This document shows, piece after piece, positions 1,322 through 19,464 of a stretch of DNA of 64,000 nt. Source of the DNA: Pseudomonas sp. MYb118 (GTDB taxonomy: Bacteria > Pseudomonadota > Gammaproteobacteria > Pseudomonadales > Pseudomonadaceae); the NCBI RefSeq assembly GCF_040947875.1, contig NZ_JBFRXN010000003.1, forward strand, positions 744,001 to 808,000. The letters are read 5' to 3'. Both the position numbers and the translations under genes were made by a program. The notes beneath the pieces were generated by a model. It was not told where the DNA came from. It made no database searches and saw nothing but the letters and a program-made list of their open reading frames with translations. Position 1 is the stretch's first letter; each line of letters begins with the position of its first letter.

Positions 1322-1660
1322 TTAGAGCTGTCCGAACGCCTGGATCTCGATTCGGTACTCCGGTGCTGCCAGCGCCGCGCCGACACACGCGCGTACCGGC
1401 GGCTGGGCGCCGACCCAGGCGTCGTACACTTCATTCATCGCGGCAAACTCGGCCATGTCCGCCAGCCAGATCTGCATGCGGGTGAGGTTGGCCTTGCCCG
1501 CACCGACCTGCTCAAGCCACTGTTCCAGCTGCGCCAATACGCAACGGGTCTGCGCGGCGATGTCGCCCGGTTGCAGGGCGACGATGCCGCTGGTTTCGAT
1601 GCGACCGTCCACCAGCACCATCTGGCTGGCCCGTGGGCCTGGATTGATTCGTTCGATCAT
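1322..1660 (-). CDS. RidA family (reactive imine/enamine deaminase)
   Basis: This 112-residue protein has the usual RidA length. It carries the family's N-terminal IxPGPRASQMVLVDGRI strand, the LEQVGAGKANLTRMQIWLAD helix and the PPVRACVGAALA segment. The start is the ATG at 1660, 8 bases after GAGGAG. A longer upstream reading in the same frame only antisenses the cupin region and has no RBS. RidA proteins hydrolyse reactive 2-aminoacrylate or other imines to ketones and ammonia in the cytosol. The conserved active-site Arg appears to be the one in PPVRACVG. Placement between a cupin and a flavin amine oxidase suggests it hydrolyses that oxidase's imine product. Confidence 0.9.
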   Translation of the reverse strand: MIERINPGPRASQMVLVDGRIETSGIVALQPGDIAAQTRCVLAQLEQWLEQVGAGKANLTRMQIWLADMAEFAAMNEVYDAWVGAQPPVRACVGAALAAPEYRIEIQAFGQL

Positions 1661-1670
1661 CGAAGACTCC

Positions 1671-2021
1671 TCAGAACAGCACGTAGGTTTTGCGCAGGGT
1701 TTCGCGGATGTCCCACACGCCCTCGCAGTTCTCCGGGAACAGCACCGCGTCACCGGCGCGCAGCTCCACCGGCTCGCCACCGTCGGGGGTGAAGGTGCAC
1801 CAGCCGCTGACGATGTGGCTGAACTCACGGTTCTTCAGGTGGCGCCGGAACACCCCCGGGCTGCTTTCCCAGACGCCGATGCTGGCGCCCACGGCGTCAT
1901 CGGTCTGGGCCTGGCCGGTGGCGGCCACGGCAATCGGTTCGCCAATCGGCAGGCGTGCCGGCGAGTGTTCGCCCAGCGCAGAGGCGGCGGCGTTGCGAAC
2001 GACGGTGAGGACTTGGCTCAT
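1671..2021 (-). CDS. Small cupin-domain protein (DUF861/ureidoglycine-aminohydrolase-like cupin)
   Basis: A 116-residue single cupin. The barrel is readable as GVWESSPGVFRR, then NREFSHIVSGWCTFTPDGGEP, then LRAGDAVLFPENCEGVWDI, ending in TLRKTYVLF. The start at 2021 is preceded by AAGGA at good spacing; an in-frame ATG at 2072 lacks an RBS. Its stop lies 10 bases before the RidA start, so cupin, RidA and FAD oxidase are probably co-transcribed, divergent from the ABC transporter. Proteins of this kind are often annotated only as cupin domain-containing and sit beside amine-oxidising enzymes. The chemistry is unknown. Confidence 0.85.
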   Translation of the reverse strand: MSQVLTVVRNAAASALGEHSPARLPIGEPIAVAATGQAQTDDAVGASIGVWESSPGVFRRHLKNREFSHIVSGWCTFTPDGGEPVELRAGDAVLFPENCEGVWDIRETLRKTYVLF

Positions 2022-2243: not shown

Positions 2244-3161
2244 ATGAACCAGACCGATGAAATTCTCTCGGTAAGGAACATTTTCAAGGTATTCGGGCCC
2301 CGCCCGGACCTGGCCATGAAGATGCTGAACGAAGGTGCCGACAAGAACGAGATCTTCAAGAAGACCGGGCATGTGGTCGGTGTGTTCGATGCCAGTTTCT
2401 CGGTCAAGCGCGGCGAGATCTTCGTGATCATGGGCCTGTCCGGTTCCGGCAAATCGACCATGGTGCGGTTGTTCAACCGCCTGATCGAACCCACCAGTGG
2501 CAGCATCCACCTCAACGGCAAGGAGATCACCGGCCTCTCCGACAAGGCGTTGCTGGACGTGCGCCGCAAGGAAATGGGCATGGTGTTCCAGTCCTTTGCC
2601 CTGATGCCGCACATGAGCGTGCTGGAAAACACCGCGTTCGGCCTGGAGATCTCCGGCGTCAGCGAAAGCGAACGCCACTGCCGGGCCAGGGAAGCCCTGG
2701 CGCAAGTGGGCCTGGCCGGCCAGGAATTCAGCTACCCGCACCAACTCTCCGGCGGCATGCAGCAGCGTGTCGGCTTGGCCCGTGCGCTGGCCAACGACCC
2801 GACCATCCTGCTGATGGACGAAGCCTTCTCGGCGCTGGACCCGCTGATCCGCAGCGAAATGCAGGGCGAACTGATCCGCCTGCAAGCCGAGCAGCAACGC
2901 ACCATCATCTTCATTTCCCACGACATCGAGGAAGCCGTTCGCATCGGCCATCGCATCGCGATCATGGAGGGCGGCCGCGTGGTGCAGATCGGCACGCCGT
3001 TGGAACTGATCGAACAGCCGGCCAACGACTATGTGCGCGCGTTCTTCAAAGGCTTTGATGTGTCCCGCGTGCTCAAGACCGGTGATGCGCCCGCGCTGGA
3101 CCCATCGACGGTCTGCCGGGTCTGCCGCAAAGAGCTTGAACTCGCCCACACCCATCACTGA
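2244..3161 (+). CDS. Glycine betaine/quaternary amine ABC transporter ATP-binding protein (ProV/OpuAA-like)
   Basis: 305 residues. The ProV-type lead with [16 protein letters not shown] precedes the ATPase core. Walker A is GLSGSGKST (64-72), the signature LSGGMQQR starts at about 168, Walker B is ILLMDE (188-193), and the switch histidine is in FISHDIEEA. Classical ProV/OpuAA proteins are about 400 residues because of C-terminal CBS domains that sense ionic strength. Those are absent here, which fits a catabolic rather than an osmoregulated importer. It starts the operon with permease (16-base gap) and binding protein. The 220 bases upstream hold its promoter, which I could not place confidently. 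Confidence 0.93.
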
Positions 3162-3177: not shown

Positions 3178-4131
3178 ATGTCCGATTTCAGCTTTCTCGA
3201 TCCCTTCCAGACCCTCACCATTCCGCTGGGTGACTGGGTGGAAAGTGTTCTGAATTACATGGTGCAGAACTTTCGTGAAGTGTTCCGCGCCATACGCTGG
3301 CCGATCGACCAGGTGCTCAACGGCATCGAGTACACCTTGCAGAGTATCCCGCCAAGCATCGGCATCATCCTGTCGTCGCTGCTCGGTTGGCAACTGGCGG
3401 GGAAGCGCATGGCCGCGCTGTGTTTTGTCACGCTGACGCTGCTGGGTTTGATCGGCGTGTGGTCGGAATCCATGACCACCCTGGCGCTGGTGCTGACCTC
3501 GGTGTTCTTCTGCGCGCTGATCGGTATTCCCTTGGGCATCGTCTGCGCCCGCAGTGACCGCCTGGAAAAAGTCATCCGACCGATCCTCGACGCCATGCAA
3601 ACCCTGCCGGCATTCGTCTATCTGGTGCCGGTGGTGATGCTGTTCGGTATTGGCAACGTCCCCGGCGTGCTGGTGACCATTGTGTTTGCGCTGCCGCCAC
3701 TGGTGCGCCTGACCAATCTCGGTATCCGCCAGGTGCCCGAAGACAAGATCGAAGCCGCCCGCGCCTTCGGCTGCACGCCACGGCAGATGCTGACCCGCGT
3801 GCAGCTGCCGCTGGCCACCTCGACCATCATGGCCGGCCTCAACCAGACCCTGATGCTGTCGCTGTCGATGGTGGTGATCGCCTCGATGATCTCCGTGGGA
3901 GGTCTGGGCCAGATGGTCTTGCGCGGCATCGGCCGCCTCGACATGGGCCTGGCCACCGTCGGCGGCATCGGCCTGGTGCTCCTGGCGATCTTCCTCGACC
4001 GCCTGACCCAGGCGATGGGCGCCCGCACCAATGCCGACCCGAGCAAACGCTGGTACCACACCGGTCCCGTGGGCGTGCTGCTGCGCCTGGTCGGGGCCGG
4101 GCAACCCGCAGGACGGCGCGAAACCGCCTGA
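3178..4131 (+). CDS. Quaternary amine ABC transporter permease (ProW-like)
   Basis: 317 residues from the ATG at 3178 (AAGAGGCAAGCCAGA upstream). There is a soluble N-terminal stretch containing the ProW-like IPLGDWVESVLNYMVQNF, then five to six hydrophobic helices. The EAA loop is EAARAFGCTPRQMLTRVQLPLA (about 197-218), which docks on the ATPase. ProW-type permeases work as a dimer in the inner membrane with ProV and periplasmic ProX. An upstream in-frame ATG at 3031 would overlap the ATPase gene by 130 bases and is rejected. The next gene, 55 bases on, is the binding protein. Confidence 0.93.
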   Translation: MSDFSFLDPFQTLTIPLGDWVESVLNYMVQNFREVFRAIRWPIDQVLNGIEYTLQSIPPSIGIILSSLLGWQLAGKRMAALCFVTLTLLGLIGVWSESMTTLALVLTSVFFCALIGIPLGIVCARSDRLEKVIRPILDAMQTLPAFVYLVPVVMLFGIGNVPGVLVTIVFALPPLVRLTNLGIRQVPEDKIEAARAFGCTPRQMLTRVQLPLATSTIMAGLNQTLMLSLSMVVIASMISVGGLGQMVLRGIGRLDMGLATVGGIGLVLLAIFLDRLTQAMGARTNADPSKRWYHTGPVGVLLRLVGAGQPAGRRETA

Positions 4132-4186: not shown

Positions 4187-5224
4187 ATGTACGAGTCCAC
4201 ATTCACCCGCCGTGTCCTGCAATGCGCCTCTGCCGTGGCGTTCAGCGTGGTCTGCCTGGGCGCCAGCGCCTCGGTGGACAAACCGGGGGAGGGGGTGACG
4301 ATCACCCCGGCATTCCCGACCGTCGATGAAGAGCGCTTCCGTGGCGAAGTGGCCCTGGCCGGCCTGCGCGAGCTGGGCTACAAAGTCCAGAAGCCCAAGG
4401 AGACAGAGTACGCCACCATGGTCCTGGCGGTCGGTTTCGGCGACGCCGATTTCACCGTCAACGCCTGGGACAAACTGCATGCGGCGTTCTACGACAAGGC
4501 CGGTGGCGACGACAACATGATCAAGGTCGGCAACGTGCTGCCCGGCGTGTTGCAGGGTTATCTGATCGACAAGAAAACCGCCGACCAATACAACATCAAG
4601 TACATCACCGACCTGAAGAAACCGGAAATCGCCAAGCTGTTCGACACCGATGGCGATGGCAAGGCCGACATGACCGGCTGCAATCCGGGCTGGGGCTGTG
4701 AACTGGTGATCGCGCACCAGATGAAAGCCTACGACCTGGAAAAATCCATCCACGTGAACCAGGGTTCTTACTTCGCCCTGATGGCCGACACCATCACCCG
4801 CTTCAAGGAAGGCAAACCGGTGTTCTATTACACCTGGATTCCGCAGTGGGTGGCCGGCGTGATGGTCGAAGGGCGTGACGTGGTCTGGCTGCAAGTGCCC
4901 AAGACTGACCTGCCGGGTGGCGACAACAGCCTCGACACGATCTACGAGGGGAAAAACCTCGGCTTCGCCCTGGACAAGGTCCAGGCCCTGGTCAATCGCA
5001 AGTTCGCCGAGAAGAACCCGGCGGCGGTGAAGTTCCTGTCGCTGATGCAGATCCCGGCTGCCGACGAGAGTGCCGAGAACCTGAAGATGCAACAGGGCGA
5101 AAAATCCATGGCGGACATTCAGCGCCATGCCAAGGAATGGATCGCTGCCCATCAGGAGCAGTTCGACGGTTGGGTGAAAGCGGCGCGGGAAACCGGCTCC
5201 CAGGCCACTCAAGCAAGCAATTGA
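4187..5224 (+). CDS. Betaine-binding periplasmic protein (ProX-like)
   Basis: 345 residues with a Sec signal peptide ending near CLGASAS (residues 23-29). Three tryptophans that form the betaine cage in E. coli ProX (W65, W140, W188 of the mature protein) correspond to W94, W169 and W217 here, with identical spacings of 75 and 48. The flanking motifs NAWDKL, GCNPGWGCE and YYTWIPQW also match. This is strong evidence that the ligand has a quaternary ammonium or related dimethylsulfonium head group (betaine, proline betaine, carnitine, DMSP). It closes the ABC operon; a GC hairpin separates it from the enzyme gene that follows. Confidence 0.93.
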   Translation: MYESTFTRRVLQCASAVAFSVVCLGASASVDKPGEGVTITPAFPTVDEERFRGEVALAGLRELGYKVQKPKETEYATMVLAVGFGDADFTVNAWDKLHAAFYDKAGGDDNMIKVGNVLPGVLQGYLIDKKTADQYNIKYITDLKKPEIAKLFDTDGDGKADMTGCNPGWGCELVIAHQMKAYDLEKSIHVNQGSYFALMADTITRFKEGKPVFYYTWIPQWVAGVMVEGRDVVWLQVPKTDLPGGDNSLDTIYEGKNLGFALDKVQALVNRKFAEKNPAAVKFLSLMQIPAADESAENLKMQQGEKSMADIQRHAKEWIAAHQEQFDGWVKAARETGSQATQASN

Positions 5225-5235
5225 TTTGATGGCCA

Positions 5236-5260
5236 GGCCCCGATTGTCGTGATCGGGGCC
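5236..5260 (+). terminator. GC-rich hairpin between binding-protein and DddP-like genes
   Basis: The arms GGCCCCGAT and ATCGGGGCC pair perfectly (9 bp) around a 7-base loop, 11 bases after the proX-like stop. There is no clear T-run afterwards, so it may be a weak terminator, an attenuator or a 3' stabiliser separating transporter from enzyme expression. Confidence 0.5.
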
Positions 5261-5291
5261 GCCACATAATTATAGGGATGACGCCTTAGCC

Positions 5292-6623
5292 ATGATGAGT
5301 TCGCCTTTTTCGATTCCCGCAGAAAACCGTCGCATCGACCCCGCCCGCCAACGCGCCGACGGCTCACCGGACGACAACGACCGTACCGAGATCGGCCCGA
5401 CGCCCCTGGCCTTTGCCGAATGGGCGCAACTGGGCCTGCAACCGCCCAACCTTGCAAGCATGCGCGAATTCCGTCTGCAACGGATCAAGGAACAACTGGT
5501 AGCCCGCGACCTGGCGGGCATTTTGCTGTTCGATCCGCTGAACATCCGCTACGCCACTGACACCACCAATATGCAACTGTGGACCACCCACAACCCGGCA
5601 CGCGCCTGCTTCGTCGCCGCCAACGGGCATGTGACGCTGTGGGACTTCCATGGCTGCGATCACCTATCCGCGCACTTGCCGCTGATCACTGAGCTGCGCA
5701 GTGGCGCGTCGTTTTTCTATTTCGAGACTGGCGACCGCACCGAGCAGCACGCCAAGCGTTTCGCCGCCCAGGTCGACGATCTGTTGCGGGTCCATGGCGG
5801 CAGCAACCGCCGGCTGGCGGTGGATCGCATCGAAGTCGCCGGTTTGCGCGCTCTGGAAGCCCTTGGCGTGCAGGTCAGCAGTGGCCAGGAAGTGACGGAG
5901 CACGCCCGAGTGATCAAGGGCCCGGACGAAATCCGCGCCATGCGCTGCGCCGTGGCCTCCTGCGAAGCCTCGATTGGCGAGATGCGCCAGGCCATGCGCA
6001 CCGGCGCCACCGAGAACGACGTGTGGTCGGCGCTGCATGCCGGCAACATCCGCCGCGGTGGCGAGTGGATCGAAACCCGAATCTTGAGCTCCGGCCCGCG
6101 TACCAACCCCTGGTACCAGGAATCCGGCCCGCGGGTGCTCAGCGACGGCGACCTGTTGTCTTTCGACACTGACCTGATCGGCGTCTACGGCATGTGCGTG
6201 GACATGTCGCGCAGCTGGATCTGCGGCGACCGCGAACCCACCGCCGAGCAGAAACGCCTGTACCGCATCGCCCATGACCACATCAGCTTCAACACCGACC
6301 TGGTGCGCCCGGGTGTGGGTTTCACCGAACTGACCCGCCTGGCCCACCGCCTGCCGGAATCGTGCCGCGCCCAGCGTTATGGCGTGATGTTCCATGGCGT
6401 TGGGCTGTGCGACGAATACCCGTGCATCCGCTACCCGGAAGACGTCGATTCCTACGGCTACGAAGGCGTGCTGGAACCGGGCATGGCACTGTGCGTCGAG
6501 GCCTACATCGGCGAAGTCGGCGGCCGTGACGGCATCAAGCTGGAGAACCAGTTGCTGGTCACCGAGGACGGCTGCGAGGTGCTGACCCATTACCCGTTCG
6601 AAAAGAGCTTCCTGGAGGACTGA
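5292..6623 (+). CDS. dddP: M24-fold protein closely resembling DMSP lyase DddP
   Basis: 443 residues. This is not a plain Xaa-Pro peptidase. The N-terminus (RIDPARQ, DGSPDDNDRTEIGPT, FAEWAQLGL) and LFDPLNIRYATDTTNMQLW match roseobacter DddP as I recall it. The iron ligands described for DddP (D295, D297, D307, H371, E406, E421) and catalytic D377 correspond to D292, D294, D304, H368, E403, E418 and D374. All are shifted by exactly 3. Tyr366 corresponds to Y363. DddP cleaves dimethylsulfoniopropionate to DMS and acrylate in the cytosol. It follows a betaine-type importer, which could bring in DMSP. No acrylate-use genes are visible, so another betaine-like substrate remains possible. The start may be the second Met of MM. 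Confidence 0.85.
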   Translation: MMSSPFSIPAENRRIDPARQRADGSPDDNDRTEIGPTPLAFAEWAQLGLQPPNLASMREFRLQRIKEQLVARDLAGILLFDPLNIRYATDTTNMQLWTTHNPARACFVAANGHVTLWDFHGCDHLSAHLPLITELRSGASFFYFETGDRTEQHAKRFAAQVDDLLRVHGGSNRRLAVDRIEVAGLRALEALGVQVSSGQEVTEHARVIKGPDEIRAMRCAVASCEASIGEMRQAMRTGATENDVWSALHAGNIRRGGEWIETRILSSGPRTNPWYQESGPRVLSDGDLLSFDTDLIGVYGMCVDMSRSWICGDREPTAEQKRLYRIAHDHISFNTDLVRPGVGFTELTRLAHRLPESCRAQRYGVMFHGVGLCDEYPCIRYPEDVDSYGYEGVLEPGMALCVEAYIGEVGGRDGIKLENQLLVTEDGCEVLTHYPFEKSFLED

Positions 6624-6643: not shown

Positions 6644-7573
6644 ATGAAGATGGTTTCTGCGCAGCAGATCAACGCCGTACTGGACTGGGCCGGGGTGCTC
6701 GCCGCCTTGCGCCGCACGCACCTGGGGCCGCGGCCGCGGATTGATGACTTTTTCCTGGGGGACAGCGAGTACGGGCTGTTCAGTCGGGGCGTGATCCTGC
6801 CGGGTGTCGGGGCCGGGGTGAAGATCGCCTCGATCTGCCCTGGCAACCTGCAGGCCACGCCGCCATTGCCGGCCGAGGACGCGGCGTTCCTGGTGGTGGA
6901 CGAGCGCACCCGGGCCATTGCGGCGATCTGCGATGGTCCAGCGATCACTGCCTGGAAAACTGCCGGGGATTCGGCCCTGGCCGGCTCGTATTTGAGCCGG
7001 GAGGACAGCCAGGTGTTACTGGTGCTCGGTGCCGGGCCGGTGGCGCGGGCGTTGACCGAGGCGTACCTGCATGTGCGTCCGGGGATTCGTCAGGTGTTGT
7101 TGTGGAATCGCACGGCCGCCAAGGTTGAAGCCTTCGCCGCGCAACTTCAGGCAAGGGGCATCGAAGCCAGCCTGGTCAGTGACCTGGACCAAGCGGTTGG
7201 CCGCGCCGACATCATCGCCTCGGCCACTGCGTCTTCTGTCGCACTGATCAAGGGGCAGTCCGTGCGCGCCGGCACCCACATCGACCTGGTCGGCGGCTTT
7301 CGCCCGGACATGCAGGAAGCCGACGCGGACTTGGTGGCACGCGCCCGACTGTTCACCGACGATCGCAAGGGTGCGCTTAACTCGGGGGACTTGCAGGTGC
7401 CGTTGCAGGCTGGGTTGATTGACGAGGACTGCATCGAAGCCGATCTGTTCGAGATCTGCCAGGCCAGCGCGCCATGGCGTCAGCCGCAGGACATCACCCT
7501 GTACAAGAATGCCGGCGGCGCGCACCTGGACCTGACGGTGTGCCAATGCGTGCTGGAACGGCTGGCGGGCTAG
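6644..7573 (+). CDS. Ornithine cyclodeaminase/mu-crystallin family (delta1-pyrroline-2-carboxylate reductase-like)
   Basis: 309 residues. The NAD(P)-binding motif is VLGAGPVARALTEA (128-140). The substrate-side motif is GVKIASICPGN (about 58-68, with K60), followed by ITAWKTAGDSALA, where family members usually have Arg in place of K105. Such enzymes reduce cyclic imines (delta1-pyrroline- or piperideine-2-carboxylate) to proline or pipecolate, or deaminate ornithine. It begins 20 bases after the DddP-like gene, so co-transcription is likely. With amine oxidases and a racemase-family enzyme nearby, imine reduction is the best guess. Its TAG stop overlaps the stop of the convergent regulator gene. 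Confidence 0.85.
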   Translation: MKMVSAQQINAVLDWAGVLAALRRTHLGPRPRIDDFFLGDSEYGLFSRGVILPGVGAGVKIASICPGNLQATPPLPAEDAAFLVVDERTRAIAAICDGPAITAWKTAGDSALAGSYLSREDSQVLLVLGAGPVARALTEAYLHVRPGIRQVLLWNRTAAKVEAFAAQLQARGIEASLVSDLDQAVGRADIIASATASSVALIKGQSVRAGTHIDLVGGFRPDMQEADADLVARARLFTDDRKGALNSGDLQVPLQAGLIDEDCIEADLFEICQASAPWRQPQDITLYKNAGGAHLDLTVCQCVLERLAG

Positions 7574-8124
7574 GCGACGATCCGCCGGATCAGCTCGGGG
7601 GTAGAACCCACCGCGTACTTGCGCAGCAGGCTGGCGCGGTGGATGTCCACGGTGCGCGGGCTGATGCCGAGTTTCTTTGCCGCTTCCTTGCTGGTCAGGC
7701 CGTCCACCAGCAGGGCGGCGACGTCGCGTTCGCGGGCGGTTAGGCTGACTTTCTCGGCTGACGCCGGGTCGGCGACATCGGTGAAGACCCAGGCCGCCAG
7801 TTCGTAGGGATTGTCTTCGTTGAAGCCGTAGCCGCGCACGGTCACCCAGAAATGCGTGCCATCCAGGCGGCGCATGATGCGGTCGTCGTGGAACTCGGCA
7901 TGGCGCGAGAGCAGGGGGGCGAAGTGTTCGGCGGCGGATTCGAAGTCTTTCTGTTCGGGGTACAGCAGCGCGAATGAGGCGCCGATGATCTGTTCCTCAC
8001 TGGCGCGGAACATCGTCAGGGCGCGGGCGTTGCAGTTGACGATGATTCGATGGCGGGCGATGACCACCGAGACCGGCAGATGCTGAAGAAGATACTCGGG
8101 TTTCAGGCATTCCTCTTCGATCAT
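7570..8124 (-). CDS. PAS-LuxR transcriptional regulator
   Basis: 184 residues: a PAS domain (about 14-120, with the VNCNARALTMFRASEEQIIG and FWVTVRGYGF strands) followed by a LuxR/GerE helix-turn-helix (about 127-180). The HTH carries LTARERDVAALLVDGLTSKE and LGISPRTVDIHRASLLRK. There is no receiver domain, so this is a one-component sensor in which PAS may bind a small ligand. It faces the DMT transporter across a 194-base gap containing a perfect 16-bp palindrome 43 bases upstream of its start. That is a natural candidate for autoregulation and control of the transporter. Its stop overlaps the stop of the upstream convergent gene. Confidence 0.88.
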   Translation of the reverse strand: MIEEECLKPEYLLQHLPVSVVIARHRIIVNCNARALTMFRASEEQIIGASFALLYPEQKDFESAAEHFAPLLSRHAEFHDDRIMRRLDGTHFWVTVRGYGFNEDNPYELAAWVFTDVADPASAEKVSLTARERDVAALLVDGLTSKEAAKKLGISPRTVDIHRASLLRKYAVGSTPELIRRIVA

Positions 8125-8318: not shown

Positions 8319-9200
8319 ATGAGCACAGTGGCAGAACCCTTGAGTGAAGCAGGGCGCTCGAAAAGCACCCGGTTGGGCATCGGCCTGTGCCTGATGTCGA
8401 TGTTCGTGTTTGCCGCCCAGGACGGGATTACCAAGATCCTGGTCAAGGACCTGCCGGTGTCGCAGTTGATCATGGTGCGCTACTGGTTCTTCCTGCTGTT
8501 CGCCCTGTGTTTCGTGCACATGAAGGGTGGCTTGCGCAGTGCGGTGAAGAGTGGGCATCCGTGGCTGCAATTGAGCCGGTCGCTGATAGCGGTGTTCGAC
8601 ATCATGGTCTTTGGTTTGGCGCTGCGCTTTCTGGGGTTGGCCGAGACCCACGCGATCTACGCGATCTTCCCGCTGCTGACCATGGGGTTGGCGGCGTTGC
8701 TGCTGGGGGAAAAGGTCAGCCCCCGGCAATGTGTGGCGGGGCTGATCGGTTTTGCCGGTACTTTGATCATTCTCCAGCCGGGCATGGGCGTGTTCAGCGT
8801 CACTTCGTTGATTCCGCTGTTGGGCGCGGTGATGTTCGCCTTCTTCAGCGTGCTGACGCGCAAGATCAGCGCGGTCGACAGCTTCAGCACCAACATGCTG
8901 CACATGGGGTTCTGGGGCGCGCTGGCCTCGACCGTGGTGGCGACGCCGCAATGGGTGACACCGTCCTCGACCGAATGGGGGCTGTTGCTGGTGTTGTCGG
9001 TGAGCGGGGTGATTGCCCAGTTGTTGCTGTTGCAGTCGTTGAAGTACGCGGCGGCGGTGACCTTGCAACCGTTCAACTATTCGCTGCTGCTGTTCGCCTC
9101 GGTGTTTGGGGTGACCTGGTTTGGCGAGACATTGGCCACATCGCTGGTGATTGGCGCGCTGCTGGTGGTGTTGGGCGGGATTTATGCATTTCGGCGGTGA
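8319..9200 (+). CDS. EamA/DMT family transporter
   Basis: 293 residues with ten predicted hydrophobic helices in two EamA repeats (about 20-145 and 155-290). Features include FAAQDGITKILVKDLPVSQ near the start, LAETHAIYAIFPLLTM, and LLLGEKVSPRQCVAGLIGF at the end of repeat 1. The DMT superfamily moves metabolites or drugs across the inner membrane, mostly outward. The start at 8319 is the only sensible ATG before TM1. Divergent from the PAS-LuxR gene, it is probably that regulator's target. The substrate is not predictable; export of an amine or amino acid intermediate would fit the context. Confidence 0.88.
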   Translation: MSTVAEPLSEAGRSKSTRLGIGLCLMSMFVFAAQDGITKILVKDLPVSQLIMVRYWFFLLFALCFVHMKGGLRSAVKSGHPWLQLSRSLIAVFDIMVFGLALRFLGLAETHAIYAIFPLLTMGLAALLLGEKVSPRQCVAGLIGFAGTLIILQPGMGVFSVTSLIPLLGAVMFAFFSVLTRKISAVDSFSTNMLHMGFWGALASTVVATPQWVTPSSTEWGLLLVLSVSGVIAQLLLLQSLKYAAAVTLQPFNYSLLLFASVFGVTWFGETLATSLVIGALLVVLGGIYAFRR

Positions 9201-9214
9201 GTGAGACTTCCCCT

Positions 9215-9307
9215 CCTGTAGGAGCGAGCTTGCTCGCGATGAGGGTGTGTCAGTCACAGTTAATTTGCCTGACAGACCGCCATCGCGAGCAAGCTCGCTC
9301 CTACAGG
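9215..9307. repeat. REPIN, tandem copy 1 of 3
   Basis: Inverted CCTGTAGGAGCGAGCTTGC arms around a loop containing a CAGTCAC...TTTGCCTGACA segment. It is the first of three tandem units filling the 393-base gap between the DMT and epimerase genes; nothing else is seen in that gap. Confidence 0.92.
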
Positions 9308-9347
9308 TTTTGAGTCGATCGCATTTATTGTGTACACCCTGAACCAT

Positions 9348-9437
9348 TGTGGGAGCGGGCTTGCTCGCGATGAGGGCGTGTCAGTCACGGTTTATTTGCC
9401 TGACACACTGCTATCGCGAGCAAGCCCGCTCCCACAG
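9348..9437. repeat. REPIN, tandem copy 2 of 3
   Basis: Same loop as copy 1 with GTGGGAGCGGGCTTGC arms. The spacer to copy 3 (TTTTGAGTCGATC...TGTACACC) nearly repeats the spacer between copies 1 and 2, so whole units of about 131 bases were duplicated. Confidence 0.92.
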
Positions 9438-9477
9438 GTTTTTGAGTCGATCACATTTTGGTGTACACCTGAAACCA

Positions 9478-9568
9478 CTGTAGGAGCGAGCTTGCTCGCG
9501 ATAGCGGAGTGTCAGTCGCAGTTCATTTGCCTGACACATCGCCATCGCGAGCAAGCTCGCTCCTACAG
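9478..9568. repeat. REPIN, tandem copy 3 of 3
   Basis: Third unit, with GTAGGAGCGAGCTTGC arms and the shared loop. It ends 25 bases before the epimerase stop codon. Confidence 0.92.
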
Positions 9569-9593
9569 TGGGGAAGGTTGGGTTTACCTAGGC

Positions 9594-10646
9594 TCAGGCC
9601 CAGATATCTCCAATGGTGAAGCCCTCGGTGAACGGATCATCATGGTCGAGCACATAGGTGTTCAGACCATAGATCCAACTTCTGCCGGTGACGGTGGGCA
9701 CCACGGCCTTGTGTGGGCCGATGCTGGTTTCGCTGATCAGGCGGCCGGTGTAGATGTTGCCGATGATGCCCTGGTGGCGGAAATCCTGGTTCAGTGGCAG
9801 TTCGCCCTTGGCGTGCAGGGTGGCCATCTTGGCGCTGGTGCCGGTGCCGCAGGGGCAGCGGTCGAGGGCGCCGGTCCAGGTGGCCGGGTTGTCCCAGGAG
9901 AACTCGCCGCTAGCCATGGTCACCACGTTTTTCCAGTCGGCGTTGGGGTCGTCGCTGGGGCCGGAGAGCTGCGAAATGGTAATGCCCACCCCTGGATAAT
10001 CAGGATGCGCGACCGGCAGTTGTTCGATGGCAGCTTCACGGATCATCGACGACACCCGGGCAATCTCCGCACCATGTTGCGGAATCAGCTCAAGGCCCTT
10101 GAACTGGCGGACATCGGCGATCACGTAGAACATGCCACCCCAGCCGACATCCACCCGCACCTTGCCCAAGTGCGGCACGTCGATCACCGCGTCCAGGTGC
10201 GCAGCGAACGCCGGCACGTTCTGGAAGGTCACGCCCTTGACCTTGCCGTCCTTGCACTCGGCCTTGATGCGAATCAGCCCGGCCGGCGCTTCCAGCACCA
10301 GTTCGGTCAACGGTTCCTTCATCGGCAGCAGGCCCATTTCCAGCAGCACGGTGACCACCGAGATGGTGTTGCCGCCGGACATCACCGGGTACTCGATCTG
10401 CTCCATGATGATGTAGCCGGCGTCCGCCTCGGGATGGCACGGCGGCACGATGATGTTGCAGCAGTGCGCCGGGTAGCCACGCGGCTCGCGCAACATCAGC
10501 TTGCGCAGCTGGTCGTCGTTTTCTTCCAGCCATTTCATCTTGGCGTGCACGGTGTCGCCGGGAATGTGCGGAACGCCGCCAGTGATCACGCGCATGGGCG
10601 TGCCGGCGTGGGTGTCAACGGCGTGGATGGTTCTCTTGAAGGTCAT
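9594..10646 (-). CDS. Proline racemase superfamily: 4-hydroxyproline 2-epimerase-like, Ser/Cys catalytic pair
   Basis: 350 residues with the superfamily start IHAVDTHAGTPMRVITGG. The two catalytic positions are unusual. The first, normally Cys in MCGH, is Ser90 in VMSGGNT, and the following His is also lost. The second is intact as Cys266 in DRCPCGTGTSA. Proline racemase has Cys/Cys and trans-3-hydroxyproline dehydratase Cys/Thr; Ser/Cys members are, to my recollection, linked to 4-hydroxyproline 2-epimerase activity. That reaction converts trans-4-hydroxy-L-proline to cis-4-hydroxy-D-proline, which an FAD enzyme then oxidises. The ATG at 10646 has CAGGAG upstream. It follows the MFS transporter on the same strand and likely shares its transcript. 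Confidence 0.82.
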   Translation of the reverse strand: MTFKRTIHAVDTHAGTPMRVITGGVPHIPGDTVHAKMKWLEENDDQLRKLMLREPRGYPAHCCNIIVPPCHPEADAGYIIMEQIEYPVMSGGNTISVVTVLLEMGLLPMKEPLTELVLEAPAGLIRIKAECKDGKVKGVTFQNVPAFAAHLDAVIDVPHLGKVRVDVGWGGMFYVIADVRQFKGLELIPQHGAEIARVSSMIREAAIEQLPVAHPDYPGVGITISQLSGPSDDPNADWKNVVTMASGEFSWDNPATWTGALDRCPCGTGTSAKMATLHAKGELPLNQDFRHQGIIGNIYTGRLISETSIGPHKAVVPTVTGRSWIYGLNTYVLDHDDPFTEGFTIGDIWA

Positions 10647-12291: not shown

Positions 12292-12384
12292 CCTGTAGGA
12301 GCGAGCTTGCTCGCGATGGCGGTGGGTCAGCCTGTGTATGTGTCGGCTGACAGGGCCTCATCGCGAGCAAGCTCGCTCCTACAG
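12292..12384. repeat. REPIN overlapping the BCCT stop codon
   Basis: Inverted CCTGTAGGAGCGAGCTTGC arms. The right arm covers the TAG stop of the BCCT gene, so the repeat supplies the gene's last bases. Confidence 0.92.
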
Positions 12385-14007
12385 AGGTTCGGCTAGGCGG
12401 GTATGGCCCGCCAGCACCTCATTGTTGACCTCGGCCGGCGCCAGGCCTGCGTTGGAGCCCAGGGCGCGGATCAGGCCGTAACTGGCCACCAGCATGTAGA
12501 TCGCGATCGGCAGGCCGACCACGATGCTCGCCATCTGGATCGCCACCAGGCCGCCGGCGATGATCAGGCTCGCGGCAATTGCGCCCTCCAACACGCACCA
12601 CAACACGCGCAGCCAGTTCGGCGGGTTGATGCTGCCCAGCGAGTTGAGCATGCACAGCACCTGGGTGCCGGCATCCGCCGCCGTGACGAAATGCACCGCG
12701 AGCAGCAGACAGACAATGATGCTGAGAATGCCGCCCAGGGTCTTGCCATCCAGGCGTTCGAGCAGGGTAAACATCGCCGTGGTGGTTTCCTTGCGCGTGG
12801 CATCGAGGATCGGGCCGCCGGTGAACGGGCCGGCCTGGGTCTGTTCCGCCACCGGCAGGCTGTTGTAGGCCTGGCGGGTTTGCTGCTCGTCCTTGAGCGC
12901 CGTGCCGCCGAACACCGCCATCCACAGAATGGTGACCAGCGTTGGCACCAGCAAGGCGCCGACCACCAGCTCGCGGATGGTTCGGCCACGGGAAATCCGC
13001 GCGATGAACAGGCCAACGAACGGTCCCCAGGTCATCCACCAGGGCAGGTAGAACGCCGTCCAGCTCTTCTGCCAGCCGCTGCCGCTCTGGGTGTCGGTCC
13101 ACAGGCTCAGGCCGACGATGTTCTGCAGGTAGTCGCCGGTCGATTCGAACAGCAAGTTCATGATGTAGTTGGTCGGGCCGAGCATCAGCACCACCAGCAT
13201 CAGCCCCAGGGAAATGAACATGTTCACCGTCGACAGGCGCTTCATCCCGCGCGACACGCCGGCCACCAGCGAGATCGAGGCGATCACGGTCACTACGGCG
13301 ATCAGCCCGAGCTTGAACGACAGGCTCACCGGCACGCCGAACACCTGATTCAGGCCGGTGTTGATCTGCTCGACGCCCATGCCCAGCGATTGCGAGACGC
13401 CAAACGCGGTGACGGCGGCGCCGATGATGTCGACGGTATGGCCGATGGGCCCGTAGATGCGCTTGCCGATCAGCGGGTACAGCACCGAACGCAGCGCCAG
13501 TGGCAGGCCTTCACGGTAGGCGAAGTAGGCCAGGCCGAGGCCGATGATGGTAAAGATCGCCCACGGGTGCAGGCCCCAGTGGAACAGGGTGATGCGCATC
13601 GCCATGGACGCCGCCTGATCGCTCAGGCCCGGGCTGAACGGGTTGCTGGCGTAATGCAGCACCGGTTCGGCCACCGACCAGAAGATCAGGCCGACGCCCA
13701 TGCCGGCGCTAAAGAGCATGGATATCCAGGCGGCAAAACTGAATTCCGGCTTTTCGTCCGGGCGGCCGAGTTTGAGGGTGCCGTGGCGGCTGAAGGCGAT
13801 GTACAGCAACACGCAGAGCACGCCGCTGACCAGGGAAATGTAGAACCACTTGAGGTTGTCGAGGATTGCGTCCGAAGCACGCTTGAACACGCCGGCCGCC
13901 TGGTCGCCGTGGGAGGCGCACAGGATCACGAAGGCGAGGACGATCAGCAGCGACCCGACGGTCACCACGGGGTTGAGGCCCTTGAACAGGCCGGATTTTG
14001 CACGCAT
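12379..14007 (-). CDS. BCCT family betaine/carnitine/choline transporter
   Basis: 542 residues and twelve helices. GMGVG at 102-106 is the Na+-coupled betaine form of the unwound TM3 motif. TM4 carries HWGLHPWAIF (W144, W149, and F152 where BetP has Tyr197). TM8 carries FYLPWWMTWGPF (W323, W324, W327; the first Trp of the usual WAWW is Leu), followed by the family signature ARISRGRTIRE. These form the aromatic box for trimethylammonium. The N-terminus is short and the C-terminus ends soon after TM12, without a long osmosensing tail. A catabolic uptake role with the Rieske pair downstream in the same direction is likely. The stop codon lies in a REP arm. Confidence 0.93.
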   Translation of the reverse strand: MRAKSGLFKGLNPVVTVGSLLIVLAFVILCASHGDQAAGVFKRASDAILDNLKWFYISLVSGVLCVLLYIAFSRHGTLKLGRPDEKPEFSFAAWISMLFSAGMGVGLIFWSVAEPVLHYASNPFSPGLSDQAASMAMRITLFHWGLHPWAIFTIIGLGLAYFAYREGLPLALRSVLYPLIGKRIYGPIGHTVDIIGAAVTAFGVSQSLGMGVEQINTGLNQVFGVPVSLSFKLGLIAVVTVIASISLVAGVSRGMKRLSTVNMFISLGLMLVVLMLGPTNYIMNLLFESTGDYLQNIVGLSLWTDTQSGSGWQKSWTAFYLPWWMTWGPFVGLFIARISRGRTIRELVVGALLVPTLVTILWMAVFGGTALKDEQQTRQAYNSLPVAEQTQAGPFTGGPILDATRKETTTAMFTLLERLDGKTLGGILSIIVCLLLAVHFVTAADAGTQVLCMLNSLGSINPPNWLRVLWCVLEGAIAASLIIAGGLVAIQMASIVVGLPIAIYMLVASYGLIRALGSNAGLAPAEVNNEVLAGHTRLAEPL

Positions 14008-14205: not shown

Positions 14206-15333
14206 TTAGAGATCAATCACCAAATCCGAAGTGGGCCGGCTGCAGCACAGCAGGCGCAGGCCCTTGTCGATTTCGCGCTGACGGATGCCGCCGTTGTGGT
14301 TCATTTCGACGCTGCCTTCGAGTACCGCGGTCTTGCAGGTGCCGCACACGCCCTGGCTGCACGAGGAGGGCACCACGGCGCCGGCTTTCTTGGCCGCCGA
14401 GAGCACGGTCTGTTCGGCGGTCATGGTGAATTCCTTGCCCGAACGGGCCAGGCGCACGGTGAAGGTGCCCTGGGCCTGGCCGGGGGCGGCGCTCGGAACG
14501 GGCTCTACCGGTGCTTCGGCACTGATGTCGAAGCTTTCCTGGTGGTAACGCGCAAGGTCGAAACCGGCGCTGCCGAGCAGAGCCTTGGCGGCGTCCATGT
14601 AGCCCTTGGGGCCGCAGGTGAACACCGAGCGTTCGAGAAAATCCGGAATGCGCTGTTGCAGCTCGGCAATCGACAGGCGCCCGACGGGCCCGGCCCAATC
14701 CGGTTCGTCACCCAGGCCTTCGCAGAAGAACAGCGTGCGCAGGCGCGGCATAGAGCGTTCCAGGCGTGCCAGTTCGTCGCGAAAGATGATGTCCTTGGGT
14801 GTCCGCGCACTGTGCACGAAGACGATATCCAGGTCGGCATGCAGGTCGGCCGCCGCACGGGTCATGGCCATCAGCGGGGTGATGCCTGAGCCGGCGGACA
14901 GGTACAGCAACTTGCGCGCAGGGCCGGCAATCGGCGTGAAAATACCCGCCGGTCCCGACGCCGTCATGGCATCGCCGGCCTTGAGGTTGTCGTGCAGCCA
15001 GTTGGACACCGCTCCACCCGGCACCCGCTTGACCGTGATGGAAAAGGTGAACGGCCGGGTCGGCGTCGACGACAGGGTGTAGCAGCGGGAGATGACCTCC
15101 TGGCCGATCACTGGCGAGATCGTCAGGAACTGGCCCGGTTCATAGGCCAGGGCCGGGTAGTCCGGGCTGTGGAAGGTGAAGGTCTTGACGTCGTGGGTCT
15201 CGGCGACGACGCTCAGGCATTCGATGCGTTTGCTCTCGCCGCTGGCCCACTGGGCGCCGTGGGCGGCCCAATGGTCAGTGTCGGCAAAGCGCTGGTCGGC
15301 GCGCAGGCTGGCGATATTCTCGAAGACAGTCAT
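14206..15333 (-). CDS. Rieske oxygenase reductase (GbcB/CntB-like hybrid FNR-ferredoxin)
   Basis: 375 residues from the ATG at 15333, placed 4 bases after the oxygenase TAA (an in-frame ATG at 15348 is possible). Domains: FAD-binding (RCYTLSS, 83-89), NAD-binding (SAGSGITP, 146-153; CGPKGYMDA near 240) and a C-terminal plant-type 2Fe-2S ferredoxin (C325, C330, C333 and C363 or C364 in LLCCSRP). It passes electrons from NAD(P)H via FAD and the cluster to the oxygenase. This FNR-then-ferredoxin order is that of GbcB (glycine betaine), CntB (carnitine) and stachydrine demethylase partners. Confidence 0.92.
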   Translation of the reverse strand: MTVFENIASLRADQRFADTDHWAAHGAQWASGESKRIECLSVVAETHDVKTFTFHSPDYPALAYEPGQFLTISPVIGQEVISRCYTLSSTPTRPFTFSITVKRVPGGAVSNWLHDNLKAGDAMTASGPAGIFTPIAGPARKLLYLSAGSGITPLMAMTRAAADLHADLDIVFVHSARTPKDIIFRDELARLERSMPRLRTLFFCEGLGDEPDWAGPVGRLSIAELQQRIPDFLERSVFTCGPKGYMDAAKALLGSAGFDLARYHQESFDISAEAPVEPVPSAAPGQAQGTFTVRLARSGKEFTMTAEQTVLSAAKKAGAVVPSSCSQGVCGTCKTAVLEGSVEMNHNGGIRQREIDKGLRLLCCSRPTSDLVIDL

Positions 15334-15337
15334 CACC

Positions 15338-16594
15338 TTATACCCCATGGACGGCGAGACGATCGCTGTACCAGCGCAGGAACTGGTCCACGTACGGCTC
15401 GGTGAATTCGGAGTAGGGGCCCGGAATGTAGGCCGGGTCCTGGGTGCCGCTGTGGGTGATGGCGACCAGGTCGGCATCCTGCTTGGTGGTGGCCACCCAC
15501 ACTTCGGTCAGGCGCTGCACGTCGTAGTCGACGCCTTCGACGGCGTCCTTGTGCACCAGCCATTTGGTGCGCACCAGGGTGCGGTCCGGCGACAGCGGGA
15601 TGATCCAGCTGATCATCGCGTGGTCGCTCATCACGTGGGCCCAGGAGTTGTTGCCCCACAGGTGGGTGTCGCCCAGGTCCTTGCGGGTCAGGTTGCCCAA
15701 CAGCTTGGTGCAAGCAACCTTGGTGTCCAGGGTCTGGGATTCGCCACTGCCGGCGATGATCATGCGCTGGGTGCGGAACTGGGTGGCGGCATCGCCTTCC
15801 AGGTGTTCGAACGTCTCGTACAGGTGCCCGCCGCGGGCCCAGTCGGCTTCGATACCGGCCTTGCGCACTTGATAAGCGTCATAAGAAGCGCGGGCCTCTT
15901 CGCTCATTTCTTCAAGACTGACACCCAGGTCTTCGGACTGATAGGAAACAAGTAACTCGGGGTGAGTGCCCGCGCAGTGATAACACTCGCGGTTATTCTC
16001 CATCACCAACTTCCAGTTGCCGTTCTCTATATAGTCAAGTTCATAGGCGATACGGGTATTGGTCAAGTCGAAAGGGGCAAAACGCGCGCCCATGACTTCT
16101 TCCTGAATGGCAATATCAGCCGGTGCTTCTTCACTCAGGCAAACGAATACGTGGGTGCCGATGACCTTGCAATGTACTGGGATCAGACTGCGGCACTTGG
16201 GATCGAAACCCTTGCCCATGTGCGCGGCATGCTTGAGGCTGCCGTCCAGGTCGTAGGTCCATTGGTGATAAGGGCACACCAGCATGCCGACCGTGGATTT
16301 GCCCGGTTCTTTCAGGCGTGCGCCGCGGTGGCGGCAGACGTTGCGGTAGGCACGGACCTGTTCGTCGTCATCGCGCAGGACCAGGATCGACGACTTGCCG
16401 ATGTCGGTGGTGAACACATCACCGGGCTCGGCGACGTCCGCTGTCACGGCGACCAATATCCAGTGTTTGGTGAAAAATACATCGACGTCGGTTTCAAAGA
16501 TGTCCTGGCGACTGAACACTTCGCCAGGCATGCCAAAACCCGGTTGCCGGGAAGTTATAACTTCGCGGTGAGACTTGATAGACGCAATGCTCAT
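15338..16594 (-). CDS. Rieske non-heme iron oxygenase for a quaternary amine (GbcA/stachydrine demethylase-like)
   Basis: 418 residues. The Rieske 2Fe-2S ligands are C87 and H89 (CRHRGARL) and C107 and H110 (CPYHQWTYDLDG). The mononuclear iron site is H206 and H211 in NNRECYHCAGTHPEL, with D373 in TKQDADLV as the likely third ligand. The bridging residue, Asp in aromatic dioxygenases, is Glu203 here, as in carnitine and betaine oxygenases. Such enzymes hydroxylate an N-methyl group, releasing formaldehyde, or in CntA cleave carnitine. With BCCT and ABC betaine transporters nearby the substrate is a betaine. Glycine betaine, proline betaine or hydroxyproline betaine cannot be told apart from sequence alone. 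Confidence 0.92.
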   Translation of the reverse strand: MSIASIKSHREVITSRQPGFGMPGEVFSRQDIFETDVDVFFTKHWILVAVTADVAEPGDVFTTDIGKSSILVLRDDDEQVRAYRNVCRHRGARLKEPGKSTVGMLVCPYHQWTYDLDGSLKHAAHMGKGFDPKCRSLIPVHCKVIGTHVFVCLSEEAPADIAIQEEVMGARFAPFDLTNTRIAYELDYIENGNWKLVMENNRECYHCAGTHPELLVSYQSEDLGVSLEEMSEEARASYDAYQVRKAGIEADWARGGHLYETFEHLEGDAATQFRTQRMIIAGSGESQTLDTKVACTKLLGNLTRKDLGDTHLWGNNSWAHVMSDHAMISWIIPLSPDRTLVRTKWLVHKDAVEGVDYDVQRLTEVWVATTKQDADLVAITHSGTQDPAYIPGPYSEFTEPYVDQFLRWYSDRLAVHGV

Positions 16595-17820: not shown

Positions 17821-19464
17821 TCAGACAGCGAGACTCCGCTCACGCAACTCGCTATTGAGAATCCGGTCATTCTCGCTGTAGTCCACCGGGCAGTCGATCA
17901 CGTGCACACCAGGCGTCTTGATGCAGTGTTCGAGCAGCCCGAGGAAGCCTTCAGCGCTTTCCACGCGATGGCCGTGGGCGCCGTAGGCCTCGGCGTATTT
18001 GACGAAGTCCGGGTTGCCGTAATCCAGGCCGAAATCGGTGAAGCCCATGTTCGCCTGCTTCCAGCGGATCATGCCGTAGCCGTCGTCGCGCAGGATCACC
18101 ACCGTCAGGTGCATGCCCAGCCTGACCGCCGTTTCCAGCTCCTGGCTGTTCATCATGAAACCGCCATCGCCGCACACCGAGACCACCGGGCGATCGGGGT
18201 GCACCAGGTGCGCCGCCATCGCCGATGGCAGGCCGGCGCCCATGGTCGCCAGGGCGTTGTCGAGCAGCACGGTGTTGGGTTTGTGCGCCTTGTAGTTGCG
18301 GGCGAACCAGATCTTGTAGATGCCGTTGTCCAGCGCCACGATGCCTTCGGACGGCAGCGCACGACGGATGTCGGCCACCAGCCGCTGCGGGTACACCGGG
18401 AAGCGGTCGTCGTCGGCGCCTTCGGCGATCTGCGTTTCGTTGGCCTCGCGGATCGCCATCAGGCGGGTGAAGTCCCAGTGCGCGGTGTCGTTCAGGGCTT
18501 CGCCGATCTGCCACACGGCGTTGGCAATGTCGCCGATCACCTCGATCTGCGGGAAGTACACCGCATCCACCTCGGCGGAGCGGAAGTTGATGTGAATGAC
18601 TTCGGTGCCGCCGCGCACCATGAAGAACGGCGGTTTCTCGATCACGTCGTGGCCGATGTTGACGATCAGGTCCGCGGCCTCGACGGCGCGATGGACAAAG
18701 TCGCCGGCCGACAGTGCCGCGTTGCCGAGAAAGCGCGGGTGACGCTCATCGACCACACCCTTGCCCATCTGCGTGGTGATGAACGGGATGCCGGTCTTGT
18801 CGATCAGTTGCTTGAGCACCTTGGCGGTCATCTTGCGGTTGGCGCCGGCGCCGATCACCAGGATCGGGCTGCGCGCGGTGCGTAGCTTGTCGACGGCGGC
18901 CTCGACGGCCTTGTTTTCCGCCAACGGCCTGCGATGCAGACTCGGCGGGATCGGCAGGCTGTCGGTCTGCTCGGCGGCGATGTCTTCCGGCAGTTCGACG
19001 TGCACGGCGCCGGGTTTTTCTTCTTCGGCGAGGCGGAAGGCCTCACGCATGCGCGCCGGGATGTTGTCGGCGGAGGCGAATTGGTGGGTGTATTTGGTGA
19101 TCGGCGCCATCATCCCGCACACGTCGATGATCTGGAATCGACCCTGTTTGGACTTCTTGATCGGTTTCTGCCCGGTGATCATCATCATGGGCATGCCACC
19201 CAGATAGGCATAGGCGCTGGCGGTCACCAGGTTGGTCGCGCCAGGCCCGAGGGTCGACAGGCTGACGCCGGTCTTGCCGGTCAGGCGCCCGTAGGTGGCG
19301 GCCATGAACCCGGCGGACTGTTCGTGACGGGTCAGCACCAGCTTGATCTTCGACTTGCGCAGGGATTCCAGCAGGTCGAGGTTTTCCTCGCCGGGAATGC
19401 CGAACACATACTCGACACCTTCGTTTTCCAGGCATTGCACAACGACATCGGCAGCCTTGGCCAT
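17821..19464 (-). CDS. ThDP-dependent acetolactate synthase-like enzyme
   Basis: 547 residues in the three-domain ThDP layout. The catalytic Glu48 lies in TRHEQSAGFMA, a central domain follows (about 185-345), and the ThDP motif starts with GDGGFMMN (432-439) and ends near DDGYGM. It resembles catabolic acetolactate synthases (AlsS type), without the small regulatory subunit that biosynthetic IlvB needs. It lies 126 bases downstream of the aldehyde dehydrogenase on the same strand. No acetolactate decarboxylase is present. Its reaction here is unclear: it could condense or cleave a 2-oxo acid or aldehyde made by the amine pathway. Annotation as a large subunit in isolation may mislead. Confidence 0.82.
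   Translation of the reverse strand: MAKAADVVVQCLENEGVEYVFGIPGEENLDLLESLRKSKIKLVLTRHEQSAGFMAATYGRLTGKTGVSLSTLGPGATNLVTASAYAYLGGMPMMMITGQKPIKKSKQGRFQIIDVCGMMAPITKYTHQFASADNIPARMREAFRLAEEEKPGAVHVELPEDIAAEQTDSLPIPPSLHRRPLAENKAVEAAVDKLRTARSPILVIGAGANRKMTAKVLKQLIDKTGIPFITTQMGKGVVDERHPRFLGNAALSAGDFVHRAVEAADLIVNIGHDVIEKPPFFMVRGGTEVIHINFRSAEVDAVYFPQIEVIGDIANAVWQIGEALNDTAHWDFTRLMAIREANETQIAEGADDDRFPVYPQRLVADIRRALPSEGIVALDNGIYKIWFARNYKAHKPNTVLLDNALATMGAGLPSAMAAHLVHPDRPVVSVCGDGGFMMNSQELETAVRLGMHLTVVILRDDGYGMIRWKQANMGFTDFGLDYGNPDFVKYAEAYGAHGHRVESAEGFLGLLEHCIKTPGVHVIDCPVDYSENDRILNSELRERSLAV

Follow-up and report, generated by a model that had tools for sequence, protein, structure and literature searches.

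DMSP lyases release the climate-active gas dimethyl sulfide (DMS) in the sea, and a gene of one such family, dddP, lies in the genome of Pseudomonas sp. MYb118 directly behind the genes of a betaine importer. The window, by which we mean the whole stretch of 64,000 nucleotides that was analysed (contig NZ_JBFRXN010000003.1, positions 744,001 to 808,000), carries the following features around this gene:

1322..2021, minus strand: RidA and an EutQ-like cupin, divergent from proV (Pfam; kept in the relatives L004 and L005)
2244..3161, plus strand: ProV-type betaine ABC importer ATPase (NCBIfam proV subfamily, 369.6 bits, cut-off 326.6)
3178..4131, plus strand: ProW-type permease (NCBIfam ProW equivalog, 469.4 bits, cut-off 439)
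4187..5224, plus strand: ProX-type betaine-binding protein with Trp cage W94/W169/W217 (NF008334, 457.2 bits, cut-off 215; 355 bits to 1r9l)
5236..5260, plus strand: inverted repeat between proX and dddP, 9-nt arms and 7-nt loop (repeat search)
5292..6623, plus strand: DddP-family M24-fold onium lyase (putative DMSP lyase), 443 aa (family model, score to 4rzy, active site, trees)
6644..7573, plus strand: OCD/mu-crystallin family protein, pyrroline-2-carboxylate-reductase-like (PRK06141, 250.6 bits, under the cut-off of 322; Pfam OCD_Mu_crystall)
7570..8124, minus strand: PAS-LuxR regulator, convergent with the operon (Pfam PAS_9, GerE)
8319..9200, plus strand: EamA-like (DMT) transporter (weak NCBIfam 2A78 match, 36.9 bits; synteny; the name EamA is assigned here)
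9594..10646, minus strand: proline racemase superfamily protein, hydroxyproline epimerase or dehydratase type (T3LHypDht, 320.6 bits, under the cut-off of 550)
12379..14007, minus strand: BCCT transporter (TIGR00842, 464.4 bits, cut-off 407.55)
14206..16594, minus strand: GbcB-like reductase and GbcA-like Rieske protein (GbcB 349.5 bits, cut-off 500; GbcA 381.6 bits, cut-off 670; both below; Pfam Rieske)

The genes proV, proW, proX, dddP and OCD share a strand and are separated by 16, 55, 67 and 20 bases, and the gaps of 16 to 67 bases suggest that dddP would be co-transcribed with proVWX. The first-pass annotation had treated proX and dddP as the unit; both reading frames stand as it gave them, and the unit is larger, running from proV through OCD. 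ProV passes its subfamily cut-off, and its score with the narrower ProV equivalog (401.5 bits) is under the cut-off of 444. In the alignment with E. coli ProX, W65/W140/W188 correspond to W94/W169/W217 of the window protein with spacings of 75 and 48 in both, which bears out the earlier claim of a retained Trp cage. The inverted repeat is absent from the predicted terminator-like sites, and promoter and terminator scans did no better than shuffles. The OCD gene was considered as a conserved partner of DddP and rejected: among the compared relatives' loci it directly follows dddP only in MYb118, it lies about 3 kb beyond dddP in L005, after ADH and aconitase X genes, and it was not found at the L004 locus, where the gene directly after dddP encodes the EamA-like transporter.

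Judged by its sequence, the window protein is a genuine relative of DddP, the similarity being far beyond chance. Among PDB chains it scores 532 bits against RlDddP (4rzy; phmmer E 8.9e-159; 54% identity over aligned positions) and 510 bits against RdDddP (4b28), versus at most 78 bits for the other M24 proteins, the nearest of which is a peptidase; none of the 34 PDB matches at E 1e-5 or better is named creatinase. The NCBIfam DddP equivalog model NF043017 gives 616.8 bits, above the cut-off of 600 by a thin margin, and the same model gives 849.8 bits for the DddP of Paracoccus yeei. The alignment places RlDddP D295, D297, D307, H371, D377, E406 and E421 at D292, D294, D304, H368, D374, E403 and E418, and Y366 at Y363, all eight active-site residues sharing an offset of -3; the first-pass annotation had claimed this constant offset for the iron ligands and the catalytic Asp, to which the tyrosine is now added. 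Relative to 4rzy, the chains 4s01 and 4s00 show N for D377 and A for Y366 in the search alignments. The score gap and the active site support the earlier assignment to DddP, and not to the prolidases or creatinases, and the family cut-off is passed. When the MYb118 genome was searched with the window DddP, no second DddP was found, the next matches scoring 23.5 and 20.3 bits.

True DddP and the lower-scoring DddP-like Pseudomonas proteins, for which we coined the class labels B, C and D, are compared in this part:
DISCRIMINATES
The examined rows score 426-440 bits in class B, 338-355 in class C and 276-339 in class D, and all of them retain the metal ligands and the Tyr. The catalytic Asp is retained in 9/9 rows of class B (8 Pseudomonas and the MAG L045) and 6/6 of class C; in class D, which consists of distant Pseudomonas paralogues, it is replaced in 6/6 rows, by G in five and V in one, with all six ligands and the Tyr intact. 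The ligands alone prove little, since class D holds all six without the catalytic Asp; on these alignments the six metal ligands are not diagnostic by themselves, and the Asp together with overall similarity is. We count L045 in class B and L090 in class C, although the 106-row tree places both apart from those classes. A profile search found DddP above the family cut-off in 22 of 398 Pseudomonas genomes and in 3 of the 148 genomes of the family sample, the window genome being included in both counts.

Two trees were built, a quick one of 106 rows and a careful one of 51 of those rows picked by hand; the large tree omits 12 rows, among them duplicates of the query or of other rows, two short sequences (L044, L105), and L049, a Marinobacter dddP that was not readable as one frame in the extraction. 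Phylogeny had been named by the first-pass annotation as a check against M24 peptidases, and the window protein does fall among the DddPs, in trees that contained no prolidase or creatinase rows. It groups with other Pseudomonas DddPs in both trees, and in the careful tree forms a clade with L004, L005 and P0003 (100/100). Its nearest relatives outside the Pseudomonas group are, in both trees, fungal DddPs: nine fungal-labelled rows (eight by name, P0121 by similarity alone, without a source name) are monophyletic in the careful tree (100/100), and there the Pseudomonas group and the fungal DddPs together form one clade (100/99), apart from the roseobacter and Oceanimonas DddPs. Both free trees nest the fungal DddPs within Pseudomonas, and Pseudomonas is one clade in 1% of 200 bootstrap trees of the careful analysis, but monophyly of Pseudomonas is not rejected by an AU test (p 0.345); we therefore claim only the joint clade.

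The window DddP is likely to be active on DMSP, because it is most closely related to DddPs of Pseudomonas and fungi and an Aspergillus DddP reportedly converts DMSP to DMS: the A. oryzae and F. graminearum proteins are described as doing so when expressed in E. coli (PMC4108388). The identity of the A. oryzae DddP to RdDddP, given there as 50%, fits the fungal clade, whose member P0120 is 51-54% identical to RdDddP by two ways of counting; the exact protein was not matched to any row. The F. graminearum DddP, given as 32% identical to RdDddP (PMC4108388) versus 49-52% for the named Fusarium proteins of the clade, was dropped as evidence for that clade.

Further to the right of dddP lie ALDH, GbdR-like AraC, ProC-like and DapA-like genes. 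To the left of the window (L122), the minus strand carries a Rieske gene, a second proVWX, and D-amino-acid-oxidase-family, DapA-family and ALDH genes, with a LysR gene opposite; the best matches of these genes at relatives' loci are 82-94% identical, and in several Pseudomonas (e.g. L010, L028, L043) genes of the L122 type form one run with dddP. The left-flank Rieske protein matches 3n0q at 537 bits and both 3vca and 4qup at 497 bits, the latter two being labelled in the structure search as ring-hydroxylating dioxygenase and monooxygenase/demethylase; we take them to be the stachydrine demethylase Stc2. Both cut-off-passing ProX genes of the genome lie within about 12 kb of dddP, as do two of its three best GbcA-like Rieske genes. 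The earlier statement that no acrylate genes are nearby holds for the window, in which AcuI/YhdH, PrpE and PrpB, the three families looked for, gave no match; elsewhere the genome encodes an AcuI/YhdH homologue (452 bits, family cut-off 297), a PrpB outside the window and two PrpE-like CoA ligases (546 bits, under the family cut-off of 827).

N-demethylation, betaine or hydroxyproline genes adjoin dddP in many Pseudomonas and in Oceanimonas, Oceanisphaera, Marinobacter, Loktanella and Paracoccus. The loci of Oceanimonas, Oceanisphaera and Marinobacter hold LysR, Rieske and ALDH genes, with BCCT genes in the first two genera and an amine-oxidase-family gene at four of the five loci (the contig of L054 ends early); near the dddP of Oceanisphaera IT1-181 there are LysR, TRAP, RidA and oxidoreductase genes, and a demethylase was not found. 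Loktanella has Rieske, reductase and NADH:flavin oxidoreductase genes, and a Pseudomonas plasmid locus has Rieske, ALDH, oxidase and BCCT genes. In Alisedimentitalea a ring-hydroxylating dioxygenase gene is annotated about 7 kb from dddP; it is uncounted in the tally below, probably cut by the end of the stretch. The gene after dddP in Paracoccus yeei belongs to the enolase superfamily (472 bits to 4e8g, 416 bits to 2pmq and 4h2h), the three structures presumably being proline- or hydroxyproline-betaine epimerases. Such genes also adjoin DddP-like genes below the cut-off: in Rhizobium etli (353 bits) Rieske, reductase, betaine ABC importer, oxidoreductase and ALDH genes and a 4-hydroxyproline epimerase (582 bits, cut-off 376); in Sinorhizobium meliloti (316 bits) an MttB-family gene under the family cut-off, genes for a betaine ABC importer and a gene of the enolase superfamily with unassigned substrate; and in Paraburkholderia Rieske and reductase genes. 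At a Mesorhizobium locus there are a gene of the MttB family and one for a betaine ABC ATPase. Aconitase X, a gene of which follows the ADH gene in L005, is described as cis-3-hydroxy-L-proline dehydratase (PMC5144071), and by our own comparison its reaction would be like that of DddP, with an alpha proton and a beta leaving group.

Ten neighbour families were tallied at loci of at least 9 kb, counting matches at E 1e-20 over half of the query, and 20 control stretches were taken from five DddP-positive Pseudomonas genomes only, the other groups being without a control. A Rieske gene is present in 15 of 29 Pseudomonas DddP stretches, 6 of 18 other DddP stretches, 3 of 23 DddP-like stretches and 0 of 20 controls. 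For any of Rieske, MttB, enolase, flavin demethylase, proline racemase or aconitase X the counts are 21/29 (three via a 28% enolase match, in L006, L014 and L044, and one via a 29% Rieske match, in L027; many of the counted loci are close relatives and not independent), 10/18, 13/23 (enolase matches at 27-35% identity, except L125's own) and 0/20. The query sequences came from the window genome and L005, L029, L086, L125, L126, L128, L129 and L150, which match by construction; without these loci and the window the counts are 19/27 for Pseudomonas, 7/15 for other DddP, 9/19 for DddP-like and 0/20 for controls. About half of the examined DddP loci hold a Rieske N-demethylase, MttB or related betaine/hydroxyproline gene. 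L015, L016, L017 and L020 stand outside the count, their matches being confined to the amine oxidase, DapA and betaine importer families. L011, L024 and L026 match none of the ten families, and the sole match in L046 is a weak BCCT (33%); ALDH and MFS genes do occur at L026, and a LysR gene at L024.

The association was also counted by genome, in 60 Pseudomonas genomes of which 22 are DddP-positive and 38 without a match. A Rieske protein at least 75% identical to the left-flank copy is encoded in 16/22 versus 3/38 (Fisher p 3e-7), and an amine oxidase at least 63% identical in 19/22 versus 7/38, one of the seven with two internal stops (p 3e-7); neither p-value can be taken literally, because the identity cut-offs were set after viewing the lists and the genomes are related.

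We consider it probable that proVWX-dddP serves as a unit to import and cleave onium zwitterions, within a larger betaine- and hydroxyproline-scavenging island. The Trp cage of ProX would bind betaine-like solutes, which ProVW would carry into the cell; there the di-metal centre of DddP would hold the substrate carboxylate and its aromatic residues the onium group, with Asp374 as the base on the alpha carbon. With DMSP, beta-elimination would yield DMS and acrylate, and the acrylate would be cleared by the AcuI/YhdH encoded elsewhere in the genome. In the published accounts of the DddP mechanism the metal centre binds the carboxylate, Trp and Tyr are placed at the sulfonium group, and Asp is the alpha-proton base of a beta-elimination (PMC5395565, PMC4108388).

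Of the import and DMSP-cleavage unit that the first-pass annotation proposed, the ProX-type importer stands and the DMSP task is less secure, since across genomes the surroundings of these genes are often those of N-betaine and hydroxyproline catabolism. DMSP as the real substrate is in question because dddP stands among nitrogen-betaine genes, and we lean only slightly towards its being physiologically relevant. For the import-and-cleave reading count the score gap, the passed cut-off, the retained Asp and Tyr, the active fungal kin, the short gaps, and the AcuI and PrpB in the genome; against it count the N-betaine-catabolic surroundings, the window without AcuI, PrpE or PrpB matches, the two PrpE-like ligases under their family cut-off, the thin DddP margin and a Km of DddP for DMSP given as 14-17 mM (PMC5395565).

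The main natural substrate may instead be an N-betaine, on which the chemistry of DddP could lead to elimination or epimerisation, and the neighbourhoods across genomes strengthen the earlier reservation that some other betaine may be its substrate. The specific form of this reading, in which abstraction of the alpha proton from a proline- or hydroxyproline-type N-betaine is the natural reaction and DMSP cleavage a side activity, is possible and, in our judgement, rather unlikely. The adjoining genes in the genera named above, above and below the DddP cut-off, and the Rieske and amine oxidase counts, with controls at 0/20, argue for it. Against it stand the Pseudomonas loci L011, L024 and L026 and, nearly so, L046; 8 of the 18 non-Pseudomonas DddP loci (L032, L034, L035, L038, L042, L048, L053, L127, all without a match in the tally), which match no demethylase or epimerase family; the near relative G158, whose DddP is 92% identical to the window's and whose best Rieske reaches 48%; and the close Rieske in three DddP-negative genomes. 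Moreover, DMSP is the substrate on which activity in the DddP family has been demonstrated, co-occurrence does not establish a mechanism, and the sampled genomes are related. It is likewise a tentative thought that the family as a whole is at root one of N-betaine catabolism, made up of onium lyases or epimerases whose substrates would be (hydroxy)proline-type betaines imported via ProX- or BCCT-type systems. DMSP lysis would then be a side or secondary activity, retained as well by the fungal copies, which would share a recent ancestor with Pseudomonas DddP; this would explain both the high Km for DMSP and the AcuI, PrpE and PrpB matches missing near the window dddP.

Cleavage of dimethylsulfoxonium propionate (DMSOP) in preference to DMSP is improbable: purified DddP is described as cleaving DMSOP, and the R. 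nubinhibens enzyme as slightly preferring it in E. coli, but most DddPs favoured DMSP (PMC10686828). A misnamed M24 peptidase or creatinase-like hydrolase, which the Pfam M24 domain and the name Xaa-Pro peptidase on some close database homologues would suggest, is very improbable and is rejected on the scores and the active-site Asp, the prolidase alignment having H at that position and RlDddP being described as inactive on Val-Pro (PMC5395565).

Pseudomonas dddP is already on record from sediment metagenomes (PMC7039863) and from P. benzenivorans D13-4 and a P. taeanensis reference genome (PMC9327192), which share genus and gene name with the window dddP and additionally have dddD; NCBI entries already name many such proteins DddP, and the window gene adds a member. 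In one ocean survey dddP made up about 65% of bacterial ddd genes (PMC10686828). Counts of ddd genes are taken as DMS-production potential: if a large part of the DddP family belongs to N-betaine operons, they may exaggerate how much DMSP is cleaved, especially in non-marine settings, and if Pseudomonas DddP cleaves DMSP in cells, pseudomonads would be a concrete source of DMS on land too. In the open-licence literature, covered mostly by listing entry, we recognised no paper linking DddP to N-betaine catabolism, and we know of none that links the family to N-betaine operons.

Set beside known systems, the neighbourhoods of dddP here and elsewhere share with (hydroxy)proline-betaine catabolism Stc2-like Rieske, D-amino-acid-oxidase, DapA and ALDH families, along with 4-hydroxyproline epimerase and betaine importers; to our knowledge that catabolism has no DddP-family step. 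The window importer is of the same family as E. coli ProVWX, with 52% identity in ProX and the cage retained, and a second operon of this kind also lies near dddP in the MYb118 genome. DmpXWV, a DMSP-specific ABC importer whose genes in R. pomeroyi are described as not adjacent to known DMSP genes (PMC10030565), is likewise a betaine-type ABC system with an aromatic cage. For the enzyme, the fungal DddP clade (Aspergillus transmontanensis P0120 and others) has 76-82% identity to the window DddP and eukaryotic hosts. RlDddP (4rzy) and RdDddP (4b28), for which crystal structures exist, have 53-54% identity over aligned positions and the eight active-site residues in common with it; their hosts are marine roseobacters, whereas the window dddP lies in a proVWX operon and a betaine island.

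The operon that carries proX and dddP lies among several further features, one of them just beyond the window in its left flank (L122); negative values count leftward from the window's start:

about -11575 to -4417 (7-14 kb of L122): second proVWX operon, accompanied by genes for an amine oxidase, a DapA-family protein and an ALDH
5236-5260: perfect inverted repeat with 9-nt arms and a 7-nt loop, between proX and dddP
9594-30017: hydroxyproline-type gene set comprising a proline racemase family gene, a dioxovalerate-dehydrogenase-like ALDH, two DapA-family genes, a ProC-like gene and a GbdR-like regulator
17821-19464: acetolactate synthase large-subunit-like gene within the betaine island (924.6 bits; cut-off 509)
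26862-53342: several genes resembling TonB-dependent receptors, next to FecR-like ones, identified solely by eye in the translations

The ProX proteins of the second proVWX operon and of the window operon share 74% identity. The inverted repeat could determine how much binding protein is made relative to enzyme. For the hydroxyproline-type set, curated cut-offs are reached by one DapA match only.

Elsewhere, one Pseudomonas genome (G149) encodes two DddP proteins above the cut-off, at C1:4660686 and C1:5635152, and these group together in the tree. The DddP of a record named Pantoea sp. Ap-967 (L011) is identical in the tree to that of a Pseudomonas genome (L064); the record is likely to be wrongly named or else to reflect a recent transfer. 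A Marinobacter contig (L049) has a dddP match (64%) at 9001-10321 that lacks a single open frame; either the gene is broken or the assembly is in error.

The DddP-like M24 paralogues of Pseudomonas at six loci (L091 and L093-L097) retain all of the metal ligands and have lost the catalytic Asp; these proteins probably have a function other than that of DddP.
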